From assembly GCA_002841625.1 (NCBI GenBank), contig PHAG01000012.1:1-64000 (forward strand): DNA of 64,000 bases. The letters are read 5' to 3'. Below are positions 21,475-39,225 of this stretch, one piece after another; position 1 is the stretch's first letter, and every line of letters starts with the position of its first letter. The position numbers and the translations under genes were made by a program. This stretch comes from Firmicutes bacterium HGW-Firmicutes-1 (lineage in GTDB: Bacteria > Bacillota > Clostridia > Lachnospirales > Vallitaleaceae). A model generated the notes under the pieces. That model was not told where the DNA came from, did not search any database, and saw only the letters and a list, made by a program, of their open reading frames with translations.

Positions 21475-21546
21475 AGCACAAGAAGAGACTCAAACTCGCG
21501 ACCCTCTCCTTGGCAAGGAGATGCTCTACCACTGAGCCACTTGCGA
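21475..21546 (-). tRNA. Decayed tRNA-Gly (GCC)
   Basis: Minus strand: 72 nt with D arm, anticodon arm (stem TCTCC/GGAGA, loop TTGCCAA, anticodon GCC) and T arm. Compared with the intact copy at 48367-48438, it has an acceptor mismatch at position 1:72, a T-stem mismatch and a changed T loop (TTTGAGT for TTCGAGT). It may still fold, but it looks like a degenerating duplicate. No CCA is encoded. Confidence 0.7.
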
Positions 21547-22225: not shown

Positions 22226-22957
22226 ATGAAATTCTACTTCGCTTTATGTGATGATGAAAAAGAACATTTGTTAATTTTACATGAAAAAATTGCGAATATT
22301 ATGGAAGAAAATGATTATGAAGTTATTGTTAACGGGTATGAATCAGGACAAGAACTTATTAATTGCATAAAAAACCGGATTAACAAGTATCACATTATAT
22401 TTCTAGACATACAAATGACGGAAACAAATGGCATAGAAACTGGTAAAAGAATTAGGGAGCTTAATAAAAATATAATCATTATTTACATTACGGGGTTTAT
22501 GGATTATTCGATAAATGCATTTGAGATAAGAGCATTCGATTATATACTTAAACCAATTAATACAAATAAATTAAAAAAAGCAATATTAGATGCTATTGTT
22601 CGCATTGAATTATTTGAGAATCAGCAAAGGAATATAGAACAATTTCTTACATTAAGTTATAACAAAGAGATTCTTAATATAAGACTAGAAGATATTATTT
22701 ACATAGAGAAGATTAAAAATAAGAGCATTATTATATGTGGTGAAGAAAAATATGAAGTGTATGATAGCTTATGTAATATTAAAAAGAAATTAAATGAAAA
22801 CATATTTATTCAACCACATCAAGGATATATAATTAATAAGAATAAAATAAACCACTATAAAAACCAGCAGCTTACACTTACCTCCAAATATATAGTACCA
22901 GTGAGTAAAAACAATATAAATACTATAAGAAAAGCTTTTTTTGAAAGTTTAAGGTGA
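22226..22957 (+). CDS. agrA: AgrA-like response regulator (REC-LytTR)
   Basis: A 243-residue regulator. The receiver domain (1-125) has the acidic pair in LCDDEKEH, the phospho-acceptor Asp in IIFLDIQM and Lys in DYILKPI. The LytTR DNA-binding domain (140-243) includes LEDIIYIEKIKNKSIII and FIQPHQGYIINKNKI. Proteins of this type activate promoters with paired short direct repeats after phosphorylation by AgrC. It is followed three to six bases later by the kinase gene, and AgrB/AgrD lie ~3 kb downstream, so it should be the regulator of this locus. Confidence 0.9.
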   Translation: MKFYFALCDDEKEHLLILHEKIANIMEENDYEVIVNGYESGQELINCIKNRINKYHIIFLDIQMTETNGIETGKRIRELNKNIIIIYITGFMDYSINAFEIRAFDYILKPINTNKLKKAILDAIVRIELFENQQRNIEQFLTLSYNKEILNIRLEDIIYIEKIKNKSIIICGEEKYEVYDSLCNIKKKLNENIFIQPHQGYIINKNKINHYKNQQLTLTSKYIVPVSKNNINTIRKAFFESLR

Positions 22958-22963
22958 TGTTTG

Positions 22964-24274
22964 ATGGATATGATTTGGGAGTTTATTAATTTTACAGTAA
23001 ATATAGTAGAAACAGTAATTATTTTTAAATATGTGGAGACGTTTTTTGTAAAAAAGTATACTGAAAATAAAAATTGGATATGGATTACTATAATAAGCAT
23101 TTTATCATATTCGATATGCAATATTAGTGAAAACTTTTTATGGAAGTTTATGCTATACATTATTATACTGTTATTTGTTGTTATCTTATTTGAAGGAAAC
23201 ATTGGCAAGAAATTGGTAGTATGGCTTAGTTTGTTAATTGGTGTAATTGCTATTGAAAATATTGCTGTACTTATATTAATGGTACTTTTTAATCAACCAG
23301 TAATAGTTTTTATAGATAATACTATCTTTCGTCTGGTTGCTATTTTAATTTCAAAAATCTCTCTATATTTCTTAATCTTAGGGTATGTAAATCGAAAAGA
23401 GCATAGATTATTAGAAGTAAAAAATAAGTCGTTTGTCGTGACCTTAGTAGCTTTGTTTTTTGTGAATATAATAGTAATTATGGTATTGGTGTTAATGGTT
23501 TATAAGAAAGTTAATACTCAAGATAATTTAATGAATATAATGGTGTTCAGTTGTGCAATGATTTGCATATTAGCAATTTGCATTTATGAAAGTATGCTGA
23601 AACAAAATAATGAGCAAATGGATATTCGGTTACTTAGCCAACAAAAAGATTTGCAATATAAATATGTTAATGCTATCGAAACTTCGATAGATGAAATGAA
23701 ACGTATAAAGCATGATTTTTCTAATCATATGATGTGCATCATGGGGTATCTTGAGACTAATAAATACAGTGATCTAAAGAAATATTTAACAAAGCTATTT
23801 AATCCTATAGAAAATACTGATGAGATTATTGTTACTGGTCATCCTGTTATTTCTTCTATGATATACTCAAAGATCATAGAAGCTAAGAAAGGAAATATTA
23901 AGATAAAATTGGCAACTAGTTTTGAGTCATTAATAAATATTGAAGATATAGATTTATGCATTCTTATTGGAAACATATTAGACAACGCTATTGAGGCATG
24001 CATGCATGTTGAAGAAGATAAAAGAGAAATCATGCTATGTATTCAAACAAAATGCGATTGGTTCTTAATTGATTGTATAAATAGAACGAAGAATCAAATT
24101 TTTGTAAGAAAAGGAAGCATTATAAAGACAAGCAAAGAAGATAAGGTAAACCATGGAATAGGTTTGAGAAATGTTGAGTCAATAGTCAAAAAACATAAAG
24201 GGGAAATAGCTATTGATATAATTGAAGGAAATTATATTATTAAAGTAACTATGATTAATGATTACGTCAATTGA
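22964..24274 (+). CDS. agrC: AgrC-like GHKL sensor histidine kinase
   Basis: A 436-residue membrane kinase. Residues 1-215 hold about six or seven membrane segments forming the peptide sensor. The cytoplasmic part has the H-box MKRIKHDFSNHMMCIMGYLE, the N-box GNILDNAIEAC, and the G-box NHGIGLRNVESIVKKHKGEI of the GHKL/AgrC type. It senses an extracellular autoinducer peptide and phosphorylates AgrA. The start at 22964 follows AAGGTGATG and lies seven bases after the agrA stop. A T-rich terminator follows. Confidence 0.9.
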   Translation: MDMIWEFINFTVNIVETVIIFKYVETFFVKKYTENKNWIWITIISILSYSICNISENFLWKFMLYIIILLFVVILFEGNIGKKLVVWLSLLIGVIAIENIAVLILMVLFNQPVIVFIDNTIFRLVAILISKISLYFLILGYVNRKEHRLLEVKNKSFVVTLVALFFVNIIVIMVLVLMVYKKVNTQDNLMNIMVFSCAMICILAICIYESMLKQNNEQMDIRLLSQQKDLQYKYVNAIETSIDEMKRIKHDFSNHMMCIMGYLETNKYSDLKKYLTKLFNPIENTDEIIVTGHPVISSMIYSKIIEAKKGNIKIKLATSFESLINIEDIDLCILIGNILDNAIEACMHVEEDKREIMLCIQTKCDWFLIDCINRTKNQIFVRKGSIIKTSKEDKVNHGIGLRNVESIVKKHKGEIAIDIIEGNYIIKVTMINDYVN

Positions 24275-24316
24275 AACTTTTGTCATAAATCAGCTAATCA
24301 TCATGAGTTGAAGTCC

Positions 24317-24350
24317 AATCACCACATGGTGATTGTTTTTTTTTGTTTTT
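24317..24350 (+). terminator. Terminator after agrC
   Basis: The stem AATCACCA-CA-TGGTGATT is followed by a long T-run. It separates agrAC from the genes that follow, so those need their own promoter, plausibly the AgrA target. Confidence 0.9.
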
Positions 24351-24450
24351 TTTAATAAAATGCATTTAGAGTAAATAAAAGAAGGGACTAGTAGTAACTT
24401 CAGTTATGTAATATAAATTAGCCATTTTATAAAATAGGAGGTGAAATAGT

Positions 24451-25593
24451 TTGAATATTAACTTATCTGTTCCAATGGTTTATGAAGAAGATTATGTTAA
24501 GAAGATAATAGAGCTAAACAAGAACAGAAAAAAAATTACTACAAAAATATATGAAGTATATGGTTCGCTGAAAGAAGATATTATTGGCAATTTGAGACCT
24601 GCTGAAACACTAAAAGATGTCAGCAAAGAAAAAATGAAAGAACTAATTGATGTTTTGCACAGTAATAATATCAAGTTTAATTATACTATGAATGCTACGG
24701 TTTCTGATGGGCGTGAATATAGTTCTGGGGGAAGAAAGGAAATACTTAAGTTTATTGATTCGTTAATTAGAATAGGAATTGATAGCTTTACAATTACATC
24801 TCCATATTTAATTAGATTGATAAAAGAACATTTTAAAGATGCGAATATTACAGCATCAATATGTAATGAAATTGATACTGTGCAAAAGGCGAAACAGTTT
24901 GAAGATATTGGTGTTAGCTGTATTGTTTTAAATAGAGATATTAATAGAGATTTTAAAATGCTTAAATCAATTAAAGAAAAGAATAATTGTGACATAAAAG
25001 TATTATGTACAACACCATGTATATATAGATGTATGGATGTTTACTATCATTCAAATTTATCATCAACTATGTCAAACGAATTGAAAAAAGCAATGAAGAT
25101 TTCTACTAAAGAGTTTTCACATACATCTGTTAATTGTTTGTATAAAAAAATAAATAATTTATATGAAAATATCAAATCGCCATGGATAAGACCAGAAGAT
25201 ATGAAATACTATGCTGAAATCGGAATAAACTATTTCAAAATTGATGGAAGAGATAAAACAGCTGAATATAATCTTGATGTTATAAAATCATATCTGGATG
25301 AATGTTTCGAAGGTAACCTGCTATATTTGATGAATGATGGGTATCCAAAAGATATGATCCAAATTGCAAATAAGTTAGATGTTGCTTATTTAAAAATGGG
25401 AATCAATAATAGTTCTTTAAATTCTTTTTTACAACCATTTGTTAATGGAAGCATGAATTGCAGAGATGGATGTGATATTTGTAAATATTGTGAAAAAATT
25501 GCGGAAAAAGAAGTTAAAGTAAATGAAGAATGGAGAGATATATTTTTGCAATATTTAAAGTGCGAAAATAGAAGGAGATTAGAAGCTAATTAA
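24451..25593 (+). CDS. U32-type (UbiU/UbiV-like) Fe-S protein
   Basis: A 380-residue protein of the U32 'peptidase' superfamily, a TIM barrel with a Cys-ligated 4Fe-4S cluster. It includes GIDSFTITSPYLIRLIKEHF and DIGVSCIVLNRDINRD, then Cys at CTTPCIYRCMD, and a C-terminal CRDGCDICKYC cluster. Known relatives (UbiU/V, RlhA, TrhP) hydroxylate ubiquinone precursors or RNA without oxygen. A hydroxylation of a cluster intermediate or of the cluster tRNA is possible but inferred. It starts at TTG 24451, seven bases after AGGAGGTG. It is the first gene after the agrC terminator. Confidence 0.7.
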   Translation: MNINLSVPMVYEEDYVKKIIELNKNRKKITTKIYEVYGSLKEDIIGNLRPAETLKDVSKEKMKELIDVLHSNNIKFNYTMNATVSDGREYSSGGRKEILKFIDSLIRIGIDSFTITSPYLIRLIKEHFKDANITASICNEIDTVQKAKQFEDIGVSCIVLNRDINRDFKMLKSIKEKNNCDIKVLCTTPCIYRCMDVYYHSNLSSTMSNELKKAMKISTKEFSHTSVNCLYKKINNLYENIKSPWIRPEDMKYYAEIGINYFKIDGRDKTAEYNLDVIKSYLDECFEGNLLYLMNDGYPKDMIQIANKLDVAYLKMGINNSSLNSFLQPFVNGSMNCRDGCDICKYCEKIAEKEVKVNEEWRDIFLQYLKCENRRRLEAN

Positions 25594-25729
25594 TATATCT
25601 CAAATTCACATCTAAGAAAAACAATGCTATCTTTGTTAAACGGATAAACTACATAAGATATACAAGATATAACGGCTATTAAAAAAACATGTATTGTATT
25701 GTTACTTAATTTAAATGAGGGGTAGGAAT

Positions 25730-25939
25730 ATGAAATTTACATTTGAAAGAACATTGAATGATGTATTGAATGATGATGATGCAAAGAAAATATTAGTTAA
25801 TCATTTAGGAGGATTAGTTGATGATCCAATAGTAGAAATGGTAAGAAGTAGAACATTGAAAGAAGTTGTAATGATGGCGGGGAGCTTGATTCCAGAGGAT
25901 ATAATCAAGTTAATTGAAAAAGAGTTAAACGATTTATAG
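25730..25939 (+). CDS. Small acidic helical protein of unknown function
   Basis: 69 residues, predicted wholly helical, with LNDVLNDDDAKKILVNHLGG in the first half and LIPEDIIKLIEKELNDL at the end. There is no Cys, signal peptide or membrane segment, and no carrier-type DSL motif. From memory the spacing resembles a short helical module at the ends of some secreted enzymes; this is untested. ATG 25730 is preferred because GAGGGG stands six bases upstream; an ATG at 25715 overlaps that site. It lies between the U32 gene and agrB. It could be a scaffold, a carrier or a second precursor. Confidence 0.6.
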   Translation: MKFTFERTLNDVLNDDDAKKILVNHLGGLVDDPIVEMVRSRTLKEVVMMAGSLIPEDIIKLIEKELNDL

Positions 25940-26062
25940 TAAAAAAATTAGTTCCAAAATGATATATGTTATTTTGCTTGTTACTATATTACAATTGTCT
26001 AATGGAAATGTACTGTTTTGCTTTATTCTATAGGATTCTAAGAAAATGAGAGAAGGACAATA

Positions 26063-26644
26063 ATGATTTCAAATATTTCAAGTAAATTAGCTATAGTTAT
26101 GTATAAAAATAACAACAAACAAATTGCTGATATAGAGGTTTACAAATACGGTCTAGAGTTGATGATATCTTCTATAGTAAATATGTTAGTAATGATTGGA
26201 TTATCATTAGCATTAAGTTGTTTTAAAGAAGCTATATTATATATTTTGTTTTTTGCAATTCTAAGAATTTCAGCTGGTGGATATCATGCATCTACTCATT
26301 TTAAATGCTTACTTTTGTACTCATTAATTATGTTTCCAATAATTCGTTTTATAGAAATTTTAAAAGTTGGATTAAATAGTCATTTTGTATTACTAGTGTG
26401 TTGTGTATCGATTTTTTGTGTATTTAGATATGCTCCTGTTGATTCGGAAAATAAGCCTTTGAATAAGAAAGAATATTATTTATTTAAGAAGAGTAGCAGA
26501 AATACCGTTTTAATTCAATCAACGATATTAATTCTATTAGTATTGTTAATAAATGACATATTTATTTACATATTGAGTTGTTCCGCAGGAATGTTTGTTG
26601 AATCCATTACCTTATTACCAATATTAAATCGAAGAAGGAGTTGA
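26063..26644 (+). CDS. agrB: AgrB, autoinducer-peptide processing membrane protease
   Basis: A 193-residue integral membrane Cys protease with about five membrane helices. The signature ISAGGYHASTHFKC carries catalytic His75 and Cys82, seven residues apart as in S. aureus AgrB (77 and 84). AgrB cuts the C-terminal tail off AgrD and closes the thiolactone ring. The stop overlaps the ribosome binding site of the small agrD gene, three bases downstream. Confidence 0.95.
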   Translation: MISNISSKLAIVMYKNNNKQIADIEVYKYGLELMISSIVNMLVMIGLSLALSCFKEAILYILFFAILRISAGGYHASTHFKCLLLYSLIMFPIIRFIEILKVGLNSHFVLLVCCVSIFCVFRYAPVDSENKPLNKKEYYLFKKSSRNTVLIQSTILILLVLLINDIFIYILSCSAGMFVESITLLPILNRRRS

Positions 26645-26646
26645 AA

Positions 26647-26799
26647 ATGAATATGAGATTAAAGAAATACAATGTAAAAATTTGGGCTCAATTAAGTTTG
26701 ATTGTAGTAACTATAGCGGATATGAGCTTATCGACCTGTTGTTTATGGTTATTAAACCAGCCTATATTACCAGAACAGCTAAAGAATAATAGATTGTAG
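26647..26799 (+). CDS. agrD: AgrD, autoinducer-peptide precursor (50 aa)
   Basis: A 50-residue peptide directly after agrB, with GAAGGAG upstream. An amphipathic N-terminal leader (residues 1-27) is followed by the signal region STCCLWLL and an acidic/polar tail NQPILPEQL. Counting from the second Cys (Cys32), Pro at +10 and Leu at +13 match S. aureus AgrD, so Cys32 should form a five-residue thiolactone ring Cys-Leu-Trp-Leu-Leu with an exocyclic tail of unknown length. The Cys-Cys pair is unusual. The gene is short and easily missed. Confidence 0.88.
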   Translation: MNMRLKKYNVKIWAQLSLIVVTIADMSLSTCCLWLLNQPILPEQLKNNRL

Positions 26800-26859: not shown

Positions 26860-28029
26860 ATGATAAAAGAAAGACTAGAGTTTATTCCTTTAACAAAGCT
26901 TGAATATTTAGATGATTTGGTATATCAAAATAACGATTATTTTAATTATGATATTGAAGTAATACAAAAACTGCAGTTTGGCTTTATTAAGCAGGCATAC
27001 ACACATCATTATAAAGTCAATAAAGATTTTAGAAATTATTCAAATAGGAGGGGTGTTAAACCAGACGACATAAAAAAACATGAGGATTTAATTAAAATAC
27101 CATTAATACCAAGCAGTATTTTTAAACTTAAAATAGTTAAAAGCTGCAATGAAAATGAAATTATAAAGGTTTGTACAAGCTCTGGAACAAAAGGATCCAT
27201 TAGTAAGGTTTATAGGGATGAGGTCACGTTAAATAGATTTTTAGGTGCAATGCAGACTGTCATTGATAATACTTTAGGCTTGGATGATGTCTTTTGTATT
27301 AATTTAGGCCCTTCAACAGAAGAAGCTGGTGATTTGTGGTTTTCCTATGTATTAAGTTTAATGGATATGGTATTTCCGATGGAGAATTTCATAGTTGACG
27401 GTAATTTTTATCCTCAAAAGGTTGTGGATCAAGTATGTGATGTCGTAGACAGATTTGAAAATATTGTCATCATAGGAGCTCCTATTATGTTTATTGAATT
27501 AATGAAGCATATGGAAGATCATGATATTAAAATCGATAAGTGTAAGTCAATTATGTTTATTACTGCTGGAGGTTGGAAACGTGCCTCGGGGCAAGCGATT
27601 TCTAAGAAAGAATTTTGTGAGCAATTAAAAAAATATTTTATTGGTATGAGTGAAGAGAATTCTAGAGACATATTTAATATGGTTGAGCTAAATACAATTT
27701 TTTGTGAATGTAATAAAAAGATTAAGCATTCTCCGCCATGGGTAAAAATATATATTATCGATCCTTTTACGTTAGAGCTTGTAAAGGATGGAGAAGTTGG
27801 TTTGATAGCTTATTTAGATCCGACAGCAGTAAGTTTTCCTTGTTTTATATTGACAGATGATGTTGGTAAGATTTCATTAAATGGACAATGTGAATGTGGT
27901 CGAACTGGACAAGGTCTTGAAATTATAAGGAGAGTAGAAAGTAAAGAATCCAGGGGTTGTGCTTTGAAAATTGATAAAAGATATTCCACTGAATATTATA
28001 AAGGAGGAGCTAATGGTACGAAGTTTTAA
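26860..28029 (+). CDS. luxE: LuxE-like acyl-protein synthetase
   Basis: 389 residues, close in length to Vibrio LuxE (~375). LuxE activates a fatty acid as acyl-AMP and holds it on a Cys before LuxC reduces it to aldehyde. Matching blocks are IPLIPSSIFKLKIVKS, CTSSGTKGSISKVYRD (ATP-binding), MFITAGGWKR, FNMVELNTIFCEC, and a C-terminal ESRGCALK whose Cys367 fits the acyl-accepting Cys364 of V. harveyi LuxE (LRGCSD). The start follows AAGGGAG. It overlaps luxD by 17 bases. No luciferase genes are in the window. Confidence 0.9.
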   Translation: MIKERLEFIPLTKLEYLDDLVYQNNDYFNYDIEVIQKLQFGFIKQAYTHHYKVNKDFRNYSNRRGVKPDDIKKHEDLIKIPLIPSSIFKLKIVKSCNENEIIKVCTSSGTKGSISKVYRDEVTLNRFLGAMQTVIDNTLGLDDVFCINLGPSTEEAGDLWFSYVLSLMDMVFPMENFIVDGNFYPQKVVDQVCDVVDRFENIVIIGAPIMFIELMKHMEDHDIKIDKCKSIMFITAGGWKRASGQAISKKEFCEQLKKYFIGMSEENSRDIFNMVELNTIFCECNKKIKHSPPWVKIYIIDPFTLELVKDGEVGLIAYLDPTAVSFPCFILTDDVGKISLNGQCECGRTGQGLEIIRRVESKESRGCALKIDKRYSTEYYKGGANGTKF

Positions 28030-28927
28030 TGAAAGAATTATTAATATAAAAACGAAAAATGGTGACGTCATACATAGCGTTTATAATTATTTCAAAGAGA
28101 ATACACCACTTATTATAATACCACCTCAATTTGAAAAAACTATCAGAACAAATTTAACCTTAATGATTTATTTAATAAATAACGGATTTAATGTACTGAG
28201 ATATGATAATAGATACCATAATGGAAACAGTACAGGAGATATAGAGGACTATAATTTGAAAACAGCATTAGAAGATCTAGAAATAGTTATTCAATATGTT
28301 AAATCTGATTCTAGTATTTATAATAATAATGGTATAGGACTTTTAGGTGTGAGTATAACAAGCCGTATCATATACAGATATCTGAGTGATAGTGTTAAGG
28401 ATATTGATGTTTTTTTAACATTAGTTGGTGTTGTAAATATGCAGTATACGCTGAATTCAATAATCGGCTTTGATATTGTTGATGAGGTGATTAAAGAGCC
28501 GAAAAAAATATGGGGAACTAGAAAAGTTATAAAGTATCCCGTCAATTGGGATAATTTCATAAAAATTCTAATTAACGAAAATATGCACAATTTGGAAACC
28601 GCTAATGAAGATATTCAAAAGATTAAAACACCGATTTATATTATTGCATCTGAAGATGATAAATGGGTTGATATTGAAGAATACGAAAAAGCATTTATTA
28701 CAAATAAAGAAATACTTAAAGGCGTTTACAAGCTTCCAGGTGCAGGACATGAATTATATAAAAATCCTGAGGCTGCAAAATTTGCGGCAGAACAGATTGT
28801 AAAAGTGTTTCAAGAATTTTGGGGCATTGAATCTGAACAACATATTATAAAACCAACAATAACAGACATTATAGCACACAATAAAAAGGAACGTGTTAGG
28901 GAGAAACAATATGAAAACGTAGGTTGA
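28013..28927 (+). CDS. luxD: LuxD-like acyl transferase/thioesterase (alpha/beta hydrolase)
   Basis: 304 residues, the length of Vibrio LuxD. LuxD takes an acyl group from acyl-ACP and releases fatty acid for LuxE. The region VLRYDNRYHNGNSTGDI and then GVVNMQYTLNSIIGFD are specific to LuxD (V. harveyi: GVVNLRYSLERALGFD). The nucleophile Ser114 in GVSITSR falls at the same residue number as in V. harveyi, and GAGHE gives the His. ATG 28013 is chosen because AAAGGAGGAG precedes it; it overlaps luxE, so the pair is coupled. Confidence 0.9.
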   Translation: MVRSFNERIINIKTKNGDVIHSVYNYFKENTPLIIIPPQFEKTIRTNLTLMIYLINNGFNVLRYDNRYHNGNSTGDIEDYNLKTALEDLEIVIQYVKSDSSIYNNNGIGLLGVSITSRIIYRYLSDSVKDIDVFLTLVGVVNMQYTLNSIIGFDIVDEVIKEPKKIWGTRKVIKYPVNWDNFIKILINENMHNLETANEDIQKIKTPIYIIASEDDKWVDIEEYEKAFITNKEILKGVYKLPGAGHELYKNPEAAKFAAEQIVKVFQEFWGIESEQHIIKPTITDIIAHNKKERVREKQYENVG

Positions 28928-28966
28928 TAAAGTCAACTTTTACAATTTATGAGGAGGAAATTAAAG

Positions 28967-30025
28967 ATGGTTATTGCATTAAAAGAAGAAACAAATCTGA
29001 TTACACCCAAAAAGAGTTGGAATGATCTAAAATTTCATTATTTATCAGTCATTGAAGATCCCTGGTATAAATCTGTAATGGATTTGCAGCATTTAATATC
29101 TTACTATACCTATATGTTTTATGAACAAAGAAATTTGAAAACTTTACATTTACCAATTACAACAAGCTCAATATCTAGTCCTATGGGATTAGGTAGCGAT
29201 TCAACGCCTGTAAAAGTAAATATATGTGATGTTGATACATATCTTGCAGATTCTATGCAATTTATGCTTGAGTATGGATGTAGAATTTATGAAGAAGGCT
29301 GCTTTTATATCATGCCTTCTTTTAGAGGAGAAGTAGCAGACGAAAGACATTTATGCCAGTTCTATCATAGTGAAGCAGAAATAATAGGTGGCCTTGATGA
29401 TGTAATAGCTTTAATAGAGGATTACGTTAAGTATTTATGTGAGAAACTTATAGAAAGCTATGAAGAAAAGTTATTAAAAGTAGCTGGAACTGTAGAGCAT
29501 ATAAGAGAAATATTAGCGGTAGTTGATGGATTTCCACGCATTACCTTACAAGAAGCAATAAAATTACTTGACAAAAAATATTCTAACTCTCTAAAACCGC
29601 TATATATCAAACACCCTGAAGGATTTACTATATTAACGAACTATGGTGAGAAAAAACTGATAGAGTTATTTGGAGGGATTGTATGGGTTACTCACTTTGA
29701 GCATTTGTCATTACCTTTCTACCAAGCATTCTCGGATAAAGAACAAAAATATGCATTAAATGCAGATTTATTATTTGGTATAGGAGAAGTCATTGGGGCA
29801 GGAGAAAGACATAAAGATTACGAAAAAGTGAAAAAAGCATTAAAAATTCACCAAGTAGAGGAACAGGAATATGAATGGTATTGTAATATGAAAAAGAAGT
29901 ATCCTATGCAAACTGCTGGTTTTGGGATGGGTGTTGAAAGATTTATATTATGGATATTACAACATGATGATATAAGAGATTGCCAAGTCCTTCCAAGATT
30001 TAATGGTATTAATTGTTTGCCATAA
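28967..30025 (+). CDS. AsnRS-related class II synthetase core without anticodon-binding domain
   Basis: 352 residues, beginning directly in a class II aminoacyl-tRNA synthetase catalytic core of the Asn/Asp type. TSSISSPMGLGSDSTPV precedes a flipping-loop-like region, motif 2 is PSFRGEVADERHLCQFYHSE (conserved FRxE), and motif 3 is GFGMGVERFILWILQHDDIRD with the conserved ER. The ~110-residue OB-fold that binds the anticodon in true AsnRS/AspRS is missing. Archaeal AS-AR, an asparagine synthetase derived from AsnRS, has the same architecture. So it probably activates Asp/Asn or a related acid without tRNA, perhaps to form an amide. ATG 28967 follows GAGGAGG. Confidence 0.8.
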   Translation: MVIALKEETNLITPKKSWNDLKFHYLSVIEDPWYKSVMDLQHLISYYTYMFYEQRNLKTLHLPITTSSISSPMGLGSDSTPVKVNICDVDTYLADSMQFMLEYGCRIYEEGCFYIMPSFRGEVADERHLCQFYHSEAEIIGGLDDVIALIEDYVKYLCEKLIESYEEKLLKVAGTVEHIREILAVVDGFPRITLQEAIKLLDKKYSNSLKPLYIKHPEGFTILTNYGEKKLIELFGGIVWVTHFEHLSLPFYQAFSDKEQKYALNADLLFGIGEVIGAGERHKDYEKVKKALKIHQVEEQEYEWYCNMKKKYPMQTAGFGMGVERFILWILQHDDIRDCQVLPRFNGINCLP

Positions 30026-30056: not shown

Positions 30057-30117
30057 ATTGGTGAATAGTAGCATAAAAATGATTATGAAACAGGAAAATC
30101 ACTTACTATTCACCAAT
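30057..30117. repeat. Perfect 14-bp inverted repeat upstream of the tRNA
   Basis: ATTGGTGAATAGTA (30057-30070) is inverted at TACTATTCACCAAT (30104-30117), with a 33-base loop. It lies between the synthetase stop and the tRNA 5' end, with no T-run on the plus strand. It could be a processing or stability hairpin, or a regulator site. Confidence 0.7.
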
Positions 30118-30136: not shown

Positions 30137-30208
30137 TGCGGTGTAGCTCAATTGAAGAGCACTTGGTTCATTCCCAGGAAGATATTGGTTCAAATCCAGT
30201 CACCGTAA
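30137..30208 (+). tRNA. Divergent tRNA with CAU (Met) anticodon
   Basis: 72 nt folding as a cloverleaf. Acceptor TGCGGTG/CACCGTA pairs 7 of 7 with one G-U; D stem GCTC/GAGC; anticodon stem CTTGG/CCAGG with loop TTCATTC (anticodon CAU); five-base variable region; T stem ATTGG/CCAGT with canonical loop TTCAAAT; discriminator A. It resembles elongator tRNA-Met. Departures: the D loop (AATTGAA) lacks the G18-G19 pair, position 37 is T instead of a purine, the first pair is T-A, and no CCA is encoded. It is embedded in a locus with two MetRS paralogues. Confidence 0.75.
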
Positions 30209-30251
30209 CTCGTACGGTATAATATTAACGGTAAACAAGGTGGGTATTTAT

Positions 30252-32438
30252 ATGAAAAACATAAATTGTGTTGATATTATAGAGATAGATTCTGAAGTAT
30301 TATTACCATTTGCTTATTATTTAGCAGGGATGTATAAAAATCTAACATTTAATTCAGCGGTACCTTCCTTAAATACACAGCATACAAAATTGATAAAAGA
30401 AAGCCTGGATTTTTTAGGAATAGAGTATCAAACGGTAATGTTACAAGACAAAATAGAGCCAGTTGAATGGGATAAATTGTGTAATAAAATGTGTGATTCT
30501 ATACTCCATAATTTGATTGAAGTATATAAAGAACTTTATCCAAATCAGTTATTAGACTTAGAGGTAACTAAAGTAAAACATGAGGATTTAAAGGATCAAC
30601 CTATAATTGTGGGAATTACCGAGCAGGGTTTAGAACAAGCACTAAAAGGGGGTATTTTATTAGGAAGAACTGTAGTATATATTAATAAATTAAATGCCAT
30701 AGCGGACTTTTTTGAAATATCAAAAATGGCTTCCTCAACTATATTATGTTTTGATGAAGAATTTGAAGTTCAGCAAATGAAGTTCATCTTGGATCAGAAG
30801 ACAAAAGCAAAAAATTTAGTCCCTATAGGCTTTATGTATCCTTTTGGTCAATTGAATAGAGAAAATGTAATAACTAAAGCATTTATTTTTAATACCTATA
30901 GAAAAAAAGCAAAACTATTTAACTTTTACTATCCCTTAGAAAAGCAAAATGCATCCTTTAAGTCTGAAAAGTTTAATTTTTTTATTGGTAACACTCAGGA
31001 AGAAATAAAGGATTATATATTAAAGGAAGCCGAGTTTACGTTTGCAACACCACATTCAAACGGTGTAGATATGTCTATTGGTAACGTTGTATTGTGTGCT
31101 AAGAAAGACTATATAAAGGAGGAAGAAGATGAAATAAACAGGGTGATGCCATGCTTTTATTCTGATAGTTGTAATAGACTATCTCAAAATCGTTATTATA
31201 TAGGTGCAAGTGAGATAAAAAGTAAAATACTTTTTTTATATACCTGTTGGGGGATTGTTTTGAAAAATGGTATATATGATGTGCGAACAACACTTGCTTA
31301 TCAATTTGCTAAGTCAGTCTATTCACCCATTCTTATAACAACGTATGCTATGTCCTTACTTGACAGATATGCAGGACCTTATATTGTGGATTTGTATTGT
31401 ATGGGGAAAAAAATAGGAGAAGCGATTGAATCATACAATAATAAGCATTATGAAAAATATATGGATTTGAATAACGTAGTTGTTTTATTTGGAGATCCAG
31501 AATTTAAACTTGAGATAAGCTCTGTAATTAATTTCAATGCGATTTTAACTGAAACGAAAAAATTAAGTGACTTTTTTCGCGAAGAAAACACAGGAAAACT
31601 TTGTTTTCATTTATTTGATAAAAATTTCTTTAATAACTTGGATTTTACAGATTATGTATTAAATGGGACTGCTTCATTGGGAATGAAGTATATACAGGAA
31701 GATATTGATGTGTTGAGAGAAAAAGTGAGAAATCTAAGAATGAATGCATCGCTGTTAAATAACCGTATGATGCAATCTAAACAATTTGTATACGATTATG
31801 ATAAAAGTATTAAACAATTGAGTGTAGCCTATAAAGGTTTTCAAGTAGCATGGTATGAATTTTATAAAACCATGGTTAATAATTTGGGTGGATATATTAG
31901 ATTTCAAGTGGATAGATATTTTTCGATGCCTGAGGAAGACAAAGAAGGTTTGCATAGGGAATGTCCATATTGTAAAACTTGTGTAAAAATAGAGAAAAAA
32001 GAACTGCAACCACACGGTTTGAAACGAAGACTAATAGAGTGTTTTAATTGTGCAACTATATTCGATGGGCTCGATTCGTTTTTATGGGGTGAAATAAAAT
32101 GTGAGGAGGAATGGCGGCAAGGCAGTATGGTTAAAGTTTCTGTAGAGGCTTATACAAAAATGAGTGGTGAATATTGTTATTTAATAGGGCTTATCGTTGA
32201 ACCGTTTGATAAAAAGAAAGGATTAAATATGCCTGCAACTTTTAAAAAGGGAAAGATTGACTTGGGAAAAATGGACTTAAATATATGCTTAGATGAGCTT
32301 TACATATACGATTATATAGATTTAGGTTGTTATCATTTAAATTGTATTATACTAGTAAATGAAAAAATTGTTTTTTTGAGACGACCTATATATATTACAA
32401 GGGGGAATAAAGAAGATGATGAAAAGTCAATATTGTAG
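30252..32438 (+). CDS. Large protein with clan-CD-like (caspase fold) peptidase signatures and a zinc ribbon
   Basis: 728 residues, no family recognised with certainty. The middle part shows the clan CD pattern of C25/CHAT-type Cys peptidases: His268 in ATPHSNGVD, then a hydrophobic strand ending in Cys332 (KILFLYTCWG), then YQFAKSVYSPILITTYA and VVLFGDPEFKL, which resembles the end of C25 domains. Residues ~570-610 form a zinc ribbon (CPYC and CFNC pairs). A coiled segment lies between. If the reading is right, it could cut the leader from a peptide precursor. ATG 30252 follows AAGGTGGG; its end overlaps the YcaO gene by 23 bases. Confidence 0.5.
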   Translation: MKNINCVDIIEIDSEVLLPFAYYLAGMYKNLTFNSAVPSLNTQHTKLIKESLDFLGIEYQTVMLQDKIEPVEWDKLCNKMCDSILHNLIEVYKELYPNQLLDLEVTKVKHEDLKDQPIIVGITEQGLEQALKGGILLGRTVVYINKLNAIADFFEISKMASSTILCFDEEFEVQQMKFILDQKTKAKNLVPIGFMYPFGQLNRENVITKAFIFNTYRKKAKLFNFYYPLEKQNASFKSEKFNFFIGNTQEEIKDYILKEAEFTFATPHSNGVDMSIGNVVLCAKKDYIKEEEDEINRVMPCFYSDSCNRLSQNRYYIGASEIKSKILFLYTCWGIVLKNGIYDVRTTLAYQFAKSVYSPILITTYAMSLLDRYAGPYIVDLYCMGKKIGEAIESYNNKHYEKYMDLNNVVVLFGDPEFKLEISSVINFNAILTETKKLSDFFREENTGKLCFHLFDKNFFNNLDFTDYVLNGTASLGMKYIQEDIDVLREKVRNLRMNASLLNNRMMQSKQFVYDYDKSIKQLSVAYKGFQVAWYEFYKTMVNNLGGYIRFQVDRYFSMPEEDKEGLHRECPYCKTCVKIEKKELQPHGLKRRLIECFNCATIFDGLDSFLWGEIKCEEEWRQGSMVKVSVEAYTKMSGEYCYLIGLIVEPFDKKKGLNMPATFKKGKIDLGKMDLNICLDELYIYDYIDLGCYHLNCIILVNEKIVFLRRPIYITRGNKEDDEKSIL

Positions 32439-34677
32439 CTTAGCTAAAATAATATATGAAGCAGAAATGGGTAAAGTCTGTGTTATAGAAAAAATGGGTC
32501 ATACAAAGAATGAAGTTTATAAAGTTATAGGTGAGGATAATGAAAAATACTTGATTAAGTTATTTCTCAATGAAGGAGATTTAGATATAAAAAACTGTGA
32601 GCTTATTATGTATGAGGTGTTAGGAAGCGTAGGGTATTTGAAGAAATGCTTTAAAAAGGATTTTAACTCAAAGACATATAATATAAGTTATGTTATAACA
32701 GAATACTTGGAGGGAAGAACTCTATTAGAGGTTATTGAAAAGGAGCATTACTCAGAGGAACAATTAAAGAAATATGTTAAACAAATTTATGAATATATTC
32801 AATTTTGTAGGGATATAGAGACAAAAGGCGTTGGTAATATAAATGAGAAGTTGATTGGTGAAGATAATAATTGGTTTAACTTCATGATTAAGTTCCTAGA
32901 TAACTGTTATGAAAGAACAAAAGGATTAAAACCCTGTGATAATGCCACAACTCTTATAGATATAAATTGTTTCTTGAGAAAATATTTAATTCAAAACAAG
33001 GTGTATTTTGAAAATATTATTCCTTCATTGATACCGATTGATTTAAATTTATCTAATTTTTTAATTAAGGATAATGATGAAGTAGTCGTTTTAGATGTAG
33101 ATGCTTTTTGGTCAGGAGATTGCTTTTTGGCAATGGGAGAGTTTATTGGACATATTTATGGAACTCATATTTTTAACTATTTTATTGAGTTATGGTCTGA
33201 TGTATACAAGAAAAACGCAAGATATCTGCATTTTTATGCGCTTTTGAGCAATTATTCTGTGTTGACCTTCTTGTCTAATAATGACATACATAATTTGCAT
33301 AATTATAAGCCATGGGGGAATAAATGTACCTTTTTTGATTTGATTCATTCTCATAGGTACATAGTTGATAATGAAGCTATAAATATCTTGAATATACTAA
33401 AAAACAATCCTTATTTAAATAATGATTGGGGAAAGAAAGTTGAAATGGCTTGTGATAGAGAGGTAGAAATAAAGGAAACTTTATCAAACATAGAACGAAT
33501 ATCAAGTAAAGCTGGGATTACAAGAGTTCCAGAAATAACAGGATTGGATTCTACGGGCATTTTCGCATACCAGTGCATTCGACCAGATGCTGAAAAAAAC
33601 GATGGAACCTTTACTGTATTTTCAGGAAAAGGGACTAGCGAAGAGCAGTGTAAGGTATCTGCTATCGTTGAAGGAATTGAACGATTTTGTGCAGAGAAAA
33701 GAAACTATCACAATGAAATTAAAGTAGCAACTTACGAAGAGATGATAAAAGAGCATAAGGTGATTCATCCTAAAGAGTTTAATTGTCCTAATTCTGTTAA
33801 TTTTTCTGAACAGGAAGTTTTAGAGTGGATACCAGCCCAGGATATTATTTCTGGTAAATGTTATTATATAACTGCAAATGTTGGATTTTATCCATATACA
33901 CCTAATTATGGAAGAATGCTATTTAGATATTTTACAACAGGCTTAGCCGGAGGAAATACTTATAGTGAAGCAATATCCCATGGTATTGCAGAAGCAATAG
34001 AAAGGGATGCGGCTGCCTTGAATTTGTTATTAAGAAATTATCCAGTTCTTATTAAGGATACTGTTACCAGCAAAAATGCGAGGGTAATTATTGAAAAAAT
34101 ACAGAACTCAAAATCGAGTTTAAATCTGATTATAAGATATATTACAACAATAGACATTAATGTCCCTGTTTTTTCAGTCATAATTGAAGATAAAGATATA
34201 GAAGATCCTTTGTTTATTAGTGGAGGCTATGGTGCACATCCCAATAAAGAAATTGCGTTAATAAATGCTTTAAACGAAGCAGCACTTTCAAGAGTAAGTA
34301 CAATCAGCGGTTCAAGAGAGGATCTTGAAAAGTTTAGAAAGGCTAAAGAAAATAAAGATTATGCTACCTTTAAACAAAAATATAATTATTGGTTCTCTAC
34401 TCAAGAACAAATTTCTTACGATGAAATTGAAGATTATAAATCTATTTTTTTAATGGAAGACATTGGATATATGTGTGATTGCTTAAAAAATGCGGGGTTG
34501 GAGAAAGTATTAATGGTAGATTTGTCGAACCCAGATATTCGTTTCCCTGTCGTTAAAATGCTTATCCCGGGAATTGAAAGATACTCATATGAAAGAGTTT
34601 GTATTGGTACTAGAGCAAAAATGTATTATAACTTAGTACATAATAAAAATACAAATAATAGTATTGTAAAGGCTTAA
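32416..34677 (+). CDS. ycaO: Aminoglycoside-phosphotransferase-like domain fused to YcaO
   Basis: 753 residues. Residues ~1-300 look like an APH/choline-kinase fold: a Lys strand (KYLIKLFL), then IPIDLNLSNFLIKDNDEVVVLDVDAF as catalytic and metal loops (the usual HGD is IDL here, so activity is doubtful). Residues ~355-753 are YcaO: GITRVPEITGLDSTGI, SGKGTSEEQCKVSAIVEGIERF and SEAISHGIAEAIERDAA supply the ATP-binding acidic residues. The C-terminus lacks the Pro-rich PxPxP end of azoline-forming YcaO proteins, as expected for TfuA-dependent, thioamide-forming ones. YcaO phosphorylates a backbone amide for attack by sulfide. A kinase-YcaO fusion is unusual. Confidence 0.85.
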   Translation: MMKSQYCSLAKIIYEAEMGKVCVIEKMGHTKNEVYKVIGEDNEKYLIKLFLNEGDLDIKNCELIMYEVLGSVGYLKKCFKKDFNSKTYNISYVITEYLEGRTLLEVIEKEHYSEEQLKKYVKQIYEYIQFCRDIETKGVGNINEKLIGEDNNWFNFMIKFLDNCYERTKGLKPCDNATTLIDINCFLRKYLIQNKVYFENIIPSLIPIDLNLSNFLIKDNDEVVVLDVDAFWSGDCFLAMGEFIGHIYGTHIFNYFIELWSDVYKKNARYLHFYALLSNYSVLTFLSNNDIHNLHNYKPWGNKCTFFDLIHSHRYIVDNEAINILNILKNNPYLNNDWGKKVEMACDREVEIKETLSNIERISSKAGITRVPEITGLDSTGIFAYQCIRPDAEKNDGTFTVFSGKGTSEEQCKVSAIVEGIERFCAEKRNYHNEIKVATYEEMIKEHKVIHPKEFNCPNSVNFSEQEVLEWIPAQDIISGKCYYITANVGFYPYTPNYGRMLFRYFTTGLAGGNTYSEAISHGIAEAIERDAAALNLLLRNYPVLIKDTVTSKNARVIIEKIQNSKSSLNLIIRYITTIDINVPVFSVIIEDKDIEDPLFISGGYGAHPNKEIALINALNEAALSRVSTISGSREDLEKFRKAKENKDYATFKQKYNYWFSTQEQISYDEIEDYKSIFLMEDIGYMCDCLKNAGLEKVLMVDLSNPDIRFPVVKMLIPGIERYSYERVCIGTRAKMYYNLVHNKNTNNSIVKA

Positions 34678-34708: not shown

Positions 34709-34846
34709 GTGAGTATTGAGAATAAAGAGGATAAATCAACAAAAGAAGATAATAAGGAGAATATTGAATACTTTGAACTTAATGAGGGATTAGACGAAAT
34801 TTTTGACGAATTTGAAGTAGGGCCAGAAACCGCATTGATGTGGTGA
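34709..34846 (+). CDS. Candidate precursor peptide (45 aa)
   Basis: A GTG-started 45-residue frame, eight bases after AAAGGGGGTG, directly downstream of the YcaO gene and 27 bases before the methyltransferase. It is highly acidic. Residues 1-18 are a Lys/Glu/Asp/Asn-rich start, then IEYFELNEGLDEIFDEFE looks like a helical leader recognised by a modification enzyme, and the short C-terminus is VGPETALMW. There is no Cys or signal peptide. Position, size and composition fit a ribosomal peptide precursor with a core in the last ~9 residues. No homologue was recognised, so its function is inferred from context. Confidence 0.65.
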   Translation: MSIENKEDKSTKEDNKENIEYFELNEGLDEIFDEFEVGPETALMW

Positions 34847-34873: not shown

Positions 34874-35731
34874 ATGATTTTACAAGAGTATTTAGCAGAG
34901 GATATTAAAAAAATGGATTACAATCAGTTAATAGGCTTGGTAAAGGAAACCAATAGACCACCTGGGGGTTTTAACAGTATAAAATTGTTGGCATTAAGTG
35001 CATTTTTAACACCCAATAGCAGGGTGCTTGAAATAGGAACAAGTACGGGGATAACCTCAATTGAATTAGCCAAACTTGTAGGCTGTAAAATTAAGGCGAT
35101 TGATATCAATCCAGTTAGTATTGAAGAAGCAAAGAAAAGAGCCAAGGCCGAAGGTGTTGATAACTTAATAGAATTTGAAGTTCAAGATGCAACAAATACA
35201 ACCTTTCCTGACAACTTCTTTGATATGGTTTTCTGTGGGAATGTAACCTCTCTCATTGAACAGAGAGAAAAGGCTTTTGCTGAATATATTCGTGTGCTTA
35301 AGAAAAATGGTTTTATAGCGGCCATTCCTATGTATTACATAAAAAAACCATCTAAAGAATTAATTGAAGACGTATCAGCTGCAATACAAGTTAATATTAT
35401 CCCCTGGGATAGAAAGTATTGGTTTGAATTCTTTAAGGACGAAAAAATAGAATTATGTTGGTATGAAAATTATCAATTTGATACTATTAAGACTGAAGAT
35501 GTTCATGCTTTTTCGGATGAAATATTAAAAAGAGACCATCTAAAGTGTTTGAAATTGGAGGCTTATGAAGTGCTTAAGAAAAAATATAGAGAGTTTATGA
35601 TGCTATTTAGGGATAATTTAAGTCATATGGGTTACAGTTTAATGTTAATCAGAAAAACACAATATGAAGTGGATAATGAACTTTTCACATCAAGCATCAT
35701 TACTGATGATAATCAAGTATATGGTTATTAA
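34874..35731 (+). CDS. SAM-dependent class I methyltransferase
   Basis: 285 residues. SAM-binding motif I is VLEIGTSTGITSIELAK, motif II/acidic ribose contact is KIKAIDINP, and DNFFDMVFCGNVTSL plus YIRVLKKNGFIAAIP complete the Rossmann methyltransferase core (residues ~40-165). The C-terminal ~110 residues are variable and should give substrate choice. AAGGAG precedes the ATG. Its place between the candidate precursor and the DHH gene suggests tailoring of the product; the atom methylated is unknown. Confidence 0.85.
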   Translation: MILQEYLAEDIKKMDYNQLIGLVKETNRPPGGFNSIKLLALSAFLTPNSRVLEIGTSTGITSIELAKLVGCKIKAIDINPVSIEEAKKRAKAEGVDNLIEFEVQDATNTTFPDNFFDMVFCGNVTSLIEQREKAFAEYIRVLKKNGFIAAIPMYYIKKPSKELIEDVSAAIQVNIIPWDRKYWFEFFKDEKIELCWYENYQFDTIKTEDVHAFSDEILKRDHLKCLKLEAYEVLKKKYREFMMLFRDNLSHMGYSLMLIRKTQYEVDNELFTSSIITDDNQVYGY

Positions 35732-35749
35732 TTAATAGGGAGGTATATG

Positions 35750-36739
35750 ATGCGTGAGGTATGTATTATATCCCATTCTGGAGATCCAGATGGCATTTTT
35801 TCACAGGCACTTTTGTTAAAGCATACAAGAAACGCAGTTTCTCGTATTCATAGTTTTATGATTGAAAATGATGAAATCATCCAACTCCTAAAGCGTGATG
35901 AAATAAGAAATTGTAGTGAATTGTATATTGCAGATTTGCCGCTAAATGAAGCGGCTATAACTGATAGTGAATTATTAGAATTATTGTCAGATAAAGATTT
36001 ATATTATTATGATCACCATTATTTGAGCAACAGTAGAGACAATCTTTTGAAGAATATTTGCAAAGTTTACTTGAGAGAAGAGGCAGTTTGTGCAGCTAAA
36101 ATTATCTCTCGAGTTCTTTTTCCATTAGAGCCATATCCCGAATTTGTATCTGAAATAGCACAAGCTTGTGATTTTAATATTATAAATGACAGGTTTTGGG
36201 TAGGCCAGAAATTAAGAAGAATAATAAGCGTAATATCAATTGATGAAAGAGATGAACTTGTAGATGATATTATTCGAGGAACATGGTTTGACGGAATGAA
36301 TCTTCATGAAAAATATGTGGCTAAAGAAAGTGAAGCTAATAAGTTGGAAAAGGCTGCGATTATGTTTATGAATGAAATGACAGAATTATTTGAGATTAAA
36401 GATTACAAATTTGCGATTTCATATGCATCACAAATTTTATACATGAAGCCTGGTCTAAGCAATTTAGCAGTATGCAATCCTCAATGTGATGCGGTCATTG
36501 TTTTATATGAGGGAAAGTCTGATGTATTATTAACAGCTGCATTAGGAATAAATGCAAATGCAATACCCATTTTGGAATATTGTGTTTATAAAGGAGGTGG
36601 AGGTAGAAATAACGCAGGAGGATATAAGTTAGAAAAAGAAAAAATAATAAGTCGTGAAAACTATCTAGAAATCAAGAACCATATTATAAAGGATTTTACA
36701 GAGTATTTAAAAACAATTGAATTTGAATATAATTATTAA
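35750..36739 (+). CDS. DHH/DHHA1 family phosphoesterase
   Basis: 329 residues with the DHH metal-dependent phosphoesterase signature: SHSGDPDGIFSQ (DxD motif, with Ser/Gly altered from HxDxDG), ADLP, YYDHH (the DHH motif), and a DHHA1 substrate domain ending in GGGGRNNAGGYKL. Family members cleave nanoRNA, pAp or cyclic dinucleotides with Mn. The altered first motif (HSGDPDG) keeps both Asp. In this locus it may clear AMP-type by-products or hydrolyse a nucleotide intermediate, an inference. The start at 35750 gives better spacing to GGGAGG than the ATG at 35747. Confidence 0.82.
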   Translation: MREVCIISHSGDPDGIFSQALLLKHTRNAVSRIHSFMIENDEIIQLLKRDEIRNCSELYIADLPLNEAAITDSELLELLSDKDLYYYDHHYLSNSRDNLLKNICKVYLREEAVCAAKIISRVLFPLEPYPEFVSEIAQACDFNIINDRFWVGQKLRRIISVISIDERDELVDDIIRGTWFDGMNLHEKYVAKESEANKLEKAAIMFMNEMTELFEIKDYKFAISYASQILYMKPGLSNLAVCNPQCDAVIVLYEGKSDVLLTAALGINANAIPILEYCVYKGGGGRNNAGGYKLEKEKIISRENYLEIKNHIIKDFTEYLKTIEFEYNY

Positions 36740-36813: not shown

Positions 36814-38298
36814 ATGGAAAAATCAATACATCTACCAGTTATTGTAGGCGGTAAAAAAGTATATCCAAATGAGGATAGAGAGAACTATATTATTTCATAT
36901 GATTCGGGTGTTAAAGTTGTAATTCCTACAATTACAAATGAGGAAATTCAACAATTACAAGAATCAAATAAATATATATTACATGATTTAAATATTCAAG
37001 AAATCATATCTTTTTTTGTGAAAGTTGGAAAATTTTGGAGAGTAAATAATTTAAACAATCCTTTATATGAAGAGGCACTTGTAAATTTATGTTTAATCAA
37101 TGGCTACGATAAAAAGATGGCAATAAGAGAGTTAAACATTATTGGGTCAGCTTGTTCACAGTTATCGGGAATGTATGACTTGATTGATCTTGAACTTGGA
37201 AATAGATTCTATTTAGAAGAATGGGTTCCACGAGGAGATGTCTTAGTTCATGTTCAGCCAGTAGGAAACGTATTAAATATTATGGTTGGGAATGTACCTG
37301 TTTCAGGGATAATGTCATTACTTAGAAGCAGCCTTACAAAAAACCAAACAATTGCAAAAATACCTAAAAGAGATCCTATTACGGTAATGTATTTTGTCAT
37401 GTCTATGATAGAGTTATTCCCAGACCATCCTATCACAAGATCAATGAATGTATTGTATTGGCCTGGTGGTAATGAAATCGAATCCACAATTATAGATATG
37501 GCAAATGCTGTATGTGTTTGGGGAAGCGAACAAGCAGTGAAAAGTATACGTTCAAAGGTTAAAAATGGTGTAAATGTAGTTGAATTTGGTCCAAAGATGA
37601 GTTATGCATTAGTGGGGAAAGAATCTGTTAACTGCGAAAAAGTTGCAATAGACCTTGCACACGATATTTCAATATACAATCAAGAAGCTTGTTTTTCACC
37701 ACAAATTGCATTCGTTGAAGGAAATTACAAGTTGTTTATTGAGCATCTAAAAATGGGTTTAAAGTTATATAGCAAATTATTTCCAAAAGGAACAATTATT
37801 GCTGATGCCAATGCACATGTATCTCGGACAAGGTTAGAAGCGTTATATAATGGCAACGAAGTATATTATGATGACCAGAAGGAATGGACTATTATTACCA
37901 TTAACAGCTTAGATGAGATTAACGAACACCCTCTTAATCGAGTTATTTTCGTTAAACCTATAAAGAATATCACGGACTGTCTTGAATATATTGATGAAAC
38001 TGTTCAAACTATTGCAATTTCTCCATGGGACAGAAATGTAGAAATAAGAGAAATTGCAACCTTAAAAGGTGCAGCAAAAGTTACTGAAATAGGATTAGTA
38101 GAAGCAATGAGAAATGGATCAACACATGATAACGTATACCCAATGCAGCATTTAGTAAGATGGGTATGTGTTGAAAGAGGTTGTGATTACTGGGGTAAAT
38201 ACATTGAGGATGGGCCTTTAGACACTACTAAATGGATTATGATGAATGAAAAGGAATTAGAAAACATTGATGCTTACTTAGAAAATGATGTAATCTGA
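36814..38298 (+). CDS. luxC: LuxC-like acyl-CoA/acyl-protein reductase
   Basis: 494 residues, the length of Vibrio LuxC. It is an aldehyde-dehydrogenase-superfamily enzyme that reduces the acyl group presented by LuxE to a fatty aldehyde with NADPH. Clear LuxC blocks: LPVIVGGKKV at the start, YDLIDLELGNRFYLEEWVPRG, AGNVP-type VGNVPVSGIMSLLRSSLTKNQ, MNVLYWPGGNEIE, VEFGPKMSYALVG, and IYNQEACFSPQ whose Cys293 fits the catalytic Cys of LuxC. It lies apart from luxE/luxD with RiPP-type genes between, all on one strand. AGGAGAAG precedes the ATG. Confidence 0.92.
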   Translation: MEKSIHLPVIVGGKKVYPNEDRENYIISYDSGVKVVIPTITNEEIQQLQESNKYILHDLNIQEIISFFVKVGKFWRVNNLNNPLYEEALVNLCLINGYDKKMAIRELNIIGSACSQLSGMYDLIDLELGNRFYLEEWVPRGDVLVHVQPVGNVLNIMVGNVPVSGIMSLLRSSLTKNQTIAKIPKRDPITVMYFVMSMIELFPDHPITRSMNVLYWPGGNEIESTIIDMANAVCVWGSEQAVKSIRSKVKNGVNVVEFGPKMSYALVGKESVNCEKVAIDLAHDISIYNQEACFSPQIAFVEGNYKLFIEHLKMGLKLYSKLFPKGTIIADANAHVSRTRLEALYNGNEVYYDDQKEWTIITINSLDEINEHPLNRVIFVKPIKNITDCLEYIDETVQTIAISPWDRNVEIREIATLKGAAKVTEIGLVEAMRNGSTHDNVYPMQHLVRWVCVERGCDYWGKYIEDGPLDTTKWIMMNEKELENIDAYLENDVI

Positions 38299-39110: not shown

Positions 39111-39225
39111 TATAAACGGATCATCAAATATAATTATATTAGTAGGTTCATGAGTAATACTAATGTTAATAGGTGTTCATTTGCAAGGGAAATCATGGAA
39201 GTACGAGTGAAAAAGGAGAGTATAT

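Follow-up and report, generated by a model that had tools for sequence, protein, structure and literature searches.

A 64,000-nt stretch of the genome of Firmicutes bacterium HGW-Firmicutes-1 (assembly GCA_002841625.1, contig PHAG01000012.1, positions 1–64,000; hereafter the window) carries a tRNA gene with a methionine anticodon in the midst of biosynthetic genes. This raises the question of whether the tRNA takes part in protein synthesis or has been diverted from translation to supply an amino acid to a biosynthetic pathway.

The gene, present in a single copy in the genome, is located at 30137–30208 (+) and has the anticodon CAU and A73, whereas CCA is not encoded. ARAGORN called a tRNA-Met(CAT) at 30137–30209, and the sequence matches the Rfam family RF00005 over its full length with 55.9 bits (E 2.5e-9; gathering score 29). 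Its arms read TGCGGTG TA GCTC AATTGAA GAGC A CTTGG TTCATTC CCAGG AAGAT ATTGG TTCAAAT CCAGT CACCGTA A. All four stems are paired, with three G-U wobbles (2-71, 28-42, and 50-64) and with the pairs A49-U65 and U51-A63 in the T-stem, and the full cloverleaf is the minimum-energy fold (-20.9 kcal/mol, z -2.85). Together with the canonical T loop (TTCAAAT), these results bear out the earlier note, which had described a real tRNA with a CAU anticodon and paired stems. Its observation that G18-G19 are missing and that a pyrimidine occupies position 37 also holds, as the D loop (AATTGAA) contains a single G and no GG, and the anticodon loop (TTCATTC) combines U33 and CAU with U37. A perfect 13-bp inverted repeat (30058–30070/30104–30116, +) forms a hairpin 20 nt upstream of the tRNA. 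The hairpin is strong (30058–30116, z -5.4), no second copy of the repeat occurs within the window, and it is a possible processing signal.

A comparison with the other tRNAs of the genome, which the earlier note had recommended, identified the cluster tRNA as the sole outlier among the 51 host tRNAs: only this gene has a pyrimidine at position 37 and a D loop without GG, while the other 50 have both a purine 37 and a GG-containing D loop. The cluster tRNA does not meet the criteria for an elongator tRNA-Met (purine 37, G18-G19, and the loop TTCATAC), given its loops TTCATTC and AATTGAA. The host elongator tRNA-Met, by comparison, reads GGCGGAG ... CACGG TTCATAC CCGTG ... GGGGG TTCAAAT CCCTT .... 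A tRNA-shaped pattern with U37 gave seven matches in 179 genomes of the phylum, of which only the cluster tRNA appeared tRNA-like by eye, whereas the same tRNA-Met pattern with A37 was present in 151 of them; thus, this pattern search with sorting by eye revealed no U37 tRNA-Met in the 178 other genomes of the phylum. The T-stem alone is not diagnostic, since the host initiator tRNA and one host Val tRNA also have A-U pairs at both 49-65 and 51-63.

The stems of the cluster tRNA differ from those of the host elongator tRNA-Met by 14 substitutions, which left 13 of the 21 pairs unchanged and affected two pairs on one side and six pairs on both sides without breaking any. When an equal number of stem changes was placed at random, none of 200,000 draws was free of mismatches, although this is a crude neutral model. 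Because of this compensation, a decaying pseudogene was rejected as an explanation of the cluster tRNA.

Using an alignment of the neighbouring AsnA-like protein as query, 38 loci were found in approximately 85,000 species genomes. Five clusters, those of the window, Paenibacillus woosongensis, Legionella sp., Vibrio ostreicida, and Photobacterium galatheae, share a YcaO protein, TfuA, a putative peptidase here termed X732, the AsnA-like enzyme, and a methyltransferase. The P. woosongensis cluster also contains a tRNA-Met gene (locus L101, 3030–3105; Rfam 54.5 bits), located directly upstream of the genes for MoaD, X732, YcaO, the methyltransferase, a DHH protein, and the AsnA-like enzyme, so that in both tRNA-bearing clusters the tRNA directly precedes the peptidase/YcaO genes. 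This second tRNA has the anticodon CAU and U37, G33 replaces U33, and G18-G19 are absent (AGGAGATAA, with GA in place of GG). Its T-stem AUUGG/CCAAU matches the AUUGG/CCAGU of the window tRNA, in contrast to the T-stem GGGGG/CCC.. in the own tRNA-Met of both hosts. A promoter-like site (11/12) lies upstream, the second hexamer ending 44 nt before the tRNA. X732 is present in only one of 346 Paenibacillaceae. The conservation argument rests on these two Met-type cluster tRNAs only.

No tRNA gene was detected in the scanned stretches of the Vibrio, Photobacterium, and Legionella clusters, and an Rfam search with relaxed thresholds did not reveal a cryptic tRNA there. These three clusters still encode a peptide with the motif GPETAL, YcaO-TfuA, and X732, and two of them a relative of MetRS1, the first of two MetRS paralogues described below; neither the DHH gene nor the lineage of the second, MetRS2, is present in them. 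The tRNA is therefore not obligatory for the core chemistry, and tRNA, MetRS2, and the DHH protein may form an add-on module, or the tRNA-less hosts may use their ordinary tRNA-Met. Outside the five clusters, an odd tRNA directly precedes the AsnA-like gene in the Erysipelotrichaceae MAG RUG14322 (L124: 1872–1950; Rfam 48 bits). It has the anticodon GGA without a long serine arm, G33, C73, an encoded CCA, and the T-stem AUUGG/CCAAU, and may represent a separate, independent kind of cluster tRNA. The tRNA-Phe at locus L100 is ordinary.

U33 is nearly universal in tRNAs, and both a pyrimidine at position 37 and G33 are expected to impair decoding. The cluster tRNAs have thus lost purine 37, the adjacent G18 and G19, and strong T-stem pairs, and the Paenibacillus relative has lost U33 as well, all of them features on which the ribosome and EF-Tu normally depend. 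As U33 is retained in the window tRNA, weak decoding could remain possible. In the cell-wall tRNA-Gly of Staphylococcus aureus, GG is lost at 18-19, and the pairs G49-U65 and G51-C63, which bind EF-Tu strongly, are replaced by A-U pairs (PMC4052509). The window and P. woosongensis tRNAs both meet these sequence criteria (no GG at 18-19 and A-U type pairs at 49-65 and 51-63), from which weak EF-Tu binding is inferred. The main bacterial Met identity elements, the anticodon CAU and A73 (PMC9976931), are kept by the cluster tRNA, while minor elements of the same published set are lost (A37 in both cluster tRNAs and U33 in that of P. woosongensis). Judged from its sequence, the cluster tRNA should be poor in translation yet loadable with methionine.

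The genome contains three MetRS-like genes, including the cluster pair. The earlier note had placed two MetRS paralogues after the tRNA; both exist, albeit 10.1 and 12.6 kb downstream. MetRS2 (42800–44359, +) retains the canonical motifs for catalysis (HLGH and KISKS) and for reading the anticodon (N-x3-R and PW) and has no C-terminal tRNA-binding domain. Its identity is 60% to the copy in the P. woosongensis cluster and 42–43% to host MetRS; the cluster tRNA is co-inherited with a canonical MetRS copy. MetRS1 (40272–41750, +) is a degraded paralogue. In this protein and its three relatives, HIGH is altered, KMSKS is lost with a deletion before it, and the anticodon-reading residues (N..R and W) are missing as well. 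Since the motifs are intact in MetRS2 and lost in MetRS1, MetRS2 is probably the enzyme that charges the cluster tRNA with methionine, an inference made without charging data, and MetRS1 looks repurposed. MetRS2-type copies also occur at three further AsnA-like loci (L109, L121, and L125).

The immediate neighbour of the tRNA (28949–30025, +) had been described as an AsnRS-like gene in the earlier note. It is indeed adjacent, but its product is of the AsnA type, a class II synthetase core that scores best against asparagine synthetase A models and does not meet the criterion of an AsnRS N-terminal domain: the match to the AsnRS model starts only at about residue 130 (about 132), so the protein lacks an anticodon-binding domain. 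Most of the 38 AsnA-like loci have no odd tRNA nearby, and the nearest relative in the same phylum found first (L098/L099) is accompanied by S66, ATP-grasp, and agr-type genes and by no tRNA. Because the enzyme is AsnA-type and recurs mostly without any tRNA, it is probably not the charger of the cluster tRNA. The AsnA-like loci (L100–L137), distributed over Actinomycetota, Pseudomonadota, Bacillota, and others, frequently also encode a methyltransferase and an S66/MccF-type peptidase and look like a widespread uncharacterised cluster family. LuxC/LuxD/LuxE-type genes lie beside the AsnA-like genes at three loci (L106, L108, and L114), in Herpetosiphonaceae (LuxD and LuxE only), a deltaproteobacterium, and Legionella, as an optional acyl-reduction module.

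The cluster is framed by copies or fragments of tRNA-Gly(GCC), three in all: a degenerate copy at the left border (21475–21546, −), the 3' 45 nt of the gene at the right border (45530–45574, −), and the intact gene (48367–48438), to which the latter fragment is 100% identical. This suggests that the island integrated at tRNA-Gly, and the biosynthetic cluster was probably acquired horizontally. The flanking genes are of housekeeping type (ArgRS, DegV, and galactokinase). An agr-type quorum-sensing set (22226–26799, +) comprises AgrA (22226–22957), AgrC (22964–24274), AgrB (26063–26644), and AgrD (26647–26799); a 74-aa ORF of unknown family lies between a U32 peptidase-like gene and AgrB (25715–25939). 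Between the LuxC and ThiS genes, the region 38330–39200 is occupied by non-coding remnants and a disrupted gene for an ECF-type transporter ATPase.

The remaining genes of the island point to a peptide pathway. A previously overlooked short peptide of 45 aa (34709–34846, +), with a GTG start, an AGGGGG-type ribosome-binding site, and the C-terminus ...EVGPETALMW, is inferred to be a precursor or scaffold. The motif GPETAL is invariant in the short peptides of all five clusters, and the peptide is absent from the other loci scanned. X732 (30252–32438, +), with additional C-terminal zinc-ribbon and Ig-like parts, is a putative gingipain/caspase-fold cysteine peptidase. The plain Foldseek ranking was dominated by the Ig-like part, but residues 114–424 aligned to RgpB (Z 18.2, rmsd 3.3, 265 aligned). 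With the invariant residues H268 and C332, the predicted protein meets the fold and His/Cys dyad criteria, although the confidence of the structure model is moderate (pLDDT 64.8) and no activity data exist. As a query, X732 gave no match in 96 relatives, 391 genomes of the class, plasmids, and the genome collection. A YcaO protein fused to a kinase-like domain, the latter recognised by eye (32416–34677, +), and TfuA (44347–45057, +) are both nearest to models for McrA-glycine thioamidation. YcaO matches within the class belonged to unrelated clusters. Further genes encode a SAM methyltransferase (34874–35731, +), a DHH-type phosphoesterase (35747–36739, +), which within the five clusters occurs only in the two tRNA-bearing ones and has no sequence relative in the PDB, and LuxC-type acyl reductase (36814–38298, +), LuxE-type acyl-protein synthetase (26860–28029, +), and LuxD-type acyltransferase/thioesterase (28013–28927, +) enzymes. 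A ThiS/MoaD-type sulfur carrier of 66 aa (39226–39426, +) ends in GG, as do its counterparts in all five clusters. The ThiF/MoeB-type adenylyltransferase (39432–40229, +) matches MoeB/ThiF models and adjoins this carrier, which favours a role in sulfur transfer without excluding an MccB-type adenylylation of the precursor at its C-terminus. An S66 LD-carboxypeptidase/MccF-type peptidase (41743–42732, +) is a candidate immunity protein. The locus is a peptide pathway with a synthetase connection, in which thioamidation is probable. The earlier note had invoked PEARL-type or valanimycin-type pathways; Pfam searches of the island proteins detected neither a LanB-like PEARL (lantibiotic dehydratase) nor a GNAT-fold FemX/VlmA-like transferase, and the island yielded no known aminoacyl-tRNA-dependent transferase (PEARL, FemX/GNAT, or CDPS). 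A pathway with PEARL-like logic would thus use a different enzyme.

We favour, with reasonable though far from complete confidence, the interpretation that the cluster tRNA is a dedicated, non-translational methionine donor of a peptide biosynthetic cluster that was probably acquired by horizontal transfer. The earlier proposal that the tRNA was withdrawn from translation and donates an amino acid is thereby largely upheld by the Paenibacillus tRNA with the same anomalies, the two-sided stem changes, the S. aureus-like changes, the linkage to MetRS2, and the GPETAL peptide. Diversion from translation is well supported by comparative evidence, while the donor role and its chemistry remain inferred, without expression, charging, or product data. 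MetRS2 would charge the tRNA with methionine, and the charged tRNA would escape EF-Tu and the ribosome and enter the pathway. Most simply, a Met-derived residue might be added to the ...GPETAL.. peptide or to a late intermediate, in a reaction that may be catalysed by the AsnA-like ligase or, as the analogy with SbzA suggests, by the degraded MetRS1. ThiF-ThiS would supply YcaO-TfuA for thioamidation of the peptide; release of the product would fall to the gingipain-fold peptidase, and protection of the producer to the MccF-type peptidase together with MetRS2. As a speculative extension, which we consider possible but would not expect to hold in full, the island may make a peptide natural product of a new class. 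A translation-orthogonal pair of tRNA-Met-like molecule and MetRS2 would extend or cap the GPETAL scaffold via a non-PEARL ligase (MetRS1 or AsnA-like). With the contributions of YcaO-TfuA, the ThiF-ThiS relay, and the gingipain-fold peptidase, the result would probably be a Trojan-horse compound directed against MetRS, with immunity of the MccF type.

Several other explanations deserve consideration. If the product poisons MetRS or tRNA-Met, MetRS2 and the cluster tRNA could be a resistant second charging pair that sustains protein synthesis. The company of a canonical extra MetRS and an MccF-type peptidase, the retention of CAU and A73, and the precedent of extra synthetase copies as a known device (SbzA) are compatible with such self-resistance; nevertheless, we regard it as unlikely, as the tRNA deviates exactly at the features needed for decoding and EF-Tu binding (U37, no GG, a weak T-stem, and G33 in the relative) and a resistant MetRS alone would suffice. 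Little weight is likewise given to a regulatory, processing, or decoy RNA that is not charged for biosynthesis and either marks RNase P/Z cleavage between operon segments or serves as bait for a tRNA-targeting agent. Its position inside or at the head of an operon and the strong hairpin just upstream in the window would suit this role, but a processing signal needs neither a conserved CAU and A73 nor linkage to MetRS2, and in P. woosongensis a promoter-like site precedes the tRNA (the hairpin was sought in the window only).

Decay does occur in the island, as evidenced by the broken tRNA-Gly copies at its borders and the broken ECF-transporter gene, so the tRNA might also be a functionless passenger or decaying copy. 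However, 14 stem substitutions have left each of the 21 stem pairs intact and the same anomalies recur at the matching place in a distant relative, which makes this very improbable. We are similarly sceptical of a donor tRNA charged by an enzyme other than MetRS, e.g. with Asn or Asp by the AsnA-like enzyme, whose gene is the immediate neighbour of the tRNA in the window: this enzyme has no anticodon-binding domain, most of its 38 loci lack an odd tRNA, and the cluster tRNA keeps the Met identity elements.

Enzymes for natural products that depend on aminoacyl-tRNA have been described as using the common tRNAs of the cell. If the methionine-donor interpretation is correct, an altered tRNA with its own synthetase would show how a pathway keeps charged tRNA away from the ribosome, and the two would represent an orthogonal tRNA-synthetase pair of natural origin. 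The cluster would also lead to a new peptide family and to an aminoacyl-tRNA-dependent ligase yet to be identified. Concrete handles for testing are provided by the odd tRNA, the pair of MetRS genes, and the GPETAL peptide. In the open-licence literature, we found no description of a cluster tRNA, of MetRS self-resistance with YcaO, or of GPETAL.

The system most similar at the level of the tRNA is the S. aureus tRNA-Gly species reserved for a non-ribosomal step, which shares the loss of GG at 18-19 and the A-U/U-A pairs at 49-65/51-63 (PMC4052509). In contrast to it, the cluster tRNA is Met-type, is also altered in the anticodon loop (U37, and G33 in the relative), and lies within a biosynthetic cluster that also encodes a MetRS copy of its own. 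The PEARL pathways (TglB, AmmB, and BhaB) resemble the island in their short ribosomal scaffold peptide, the supply of aminoacyl-tRNA, and a cluster peptidase (PMC12945691; PMC9016710); the 50-residue scaffold TglA receives Cys from Cys-tRNA (PMC9016710). Unlike these pathways, which have been described with ordinary cellular tRNAs, the island lacks a LanB-like PEARL. The closest precedent for the MetRS genes is SbzA of SB-203208 biosynthesis, an extra IleRS that transfers Ile from Ile-tRNA onto an intermediate of the pathway (PMC12945691). SbzA resembles MetRS1 as a cluster-encoded additional class I synthetase paralogue whose KMSKS is degenerate (PMC12945691), and it uses aminoacyl-tRNA made by a canonical synthetase (PMC12945691), acting both as aminoacyl transferase and as resistance enzyme; the island differs in having MetRS, two paralogues with a dedicated tRNA, and a peptide-based pathway. 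With the microcin C family (ThiF/MccB and the S66 peptidase MccF), the island shares a ThiF-type enzyme, an S66 peptidase, a short precursor peptide, and a synthetase link, but its ThiF is paired with a ThiS/MoaD carrier, and YcaO-TfuA, the AsnA-like enzyme, the gingipain-fold peptidase, and the tRNA are added. Finally, the best scores of YcaO and TfuA against McrA-glycine thioamidation models link the island to YcaO-TfuA thioamidated RiPPs, from which, as from the McrA system, it is set apart by the fusion of a kinase-like domain to YcaO, its own sulfur-carrier system, and the new GPETAL precursor family.
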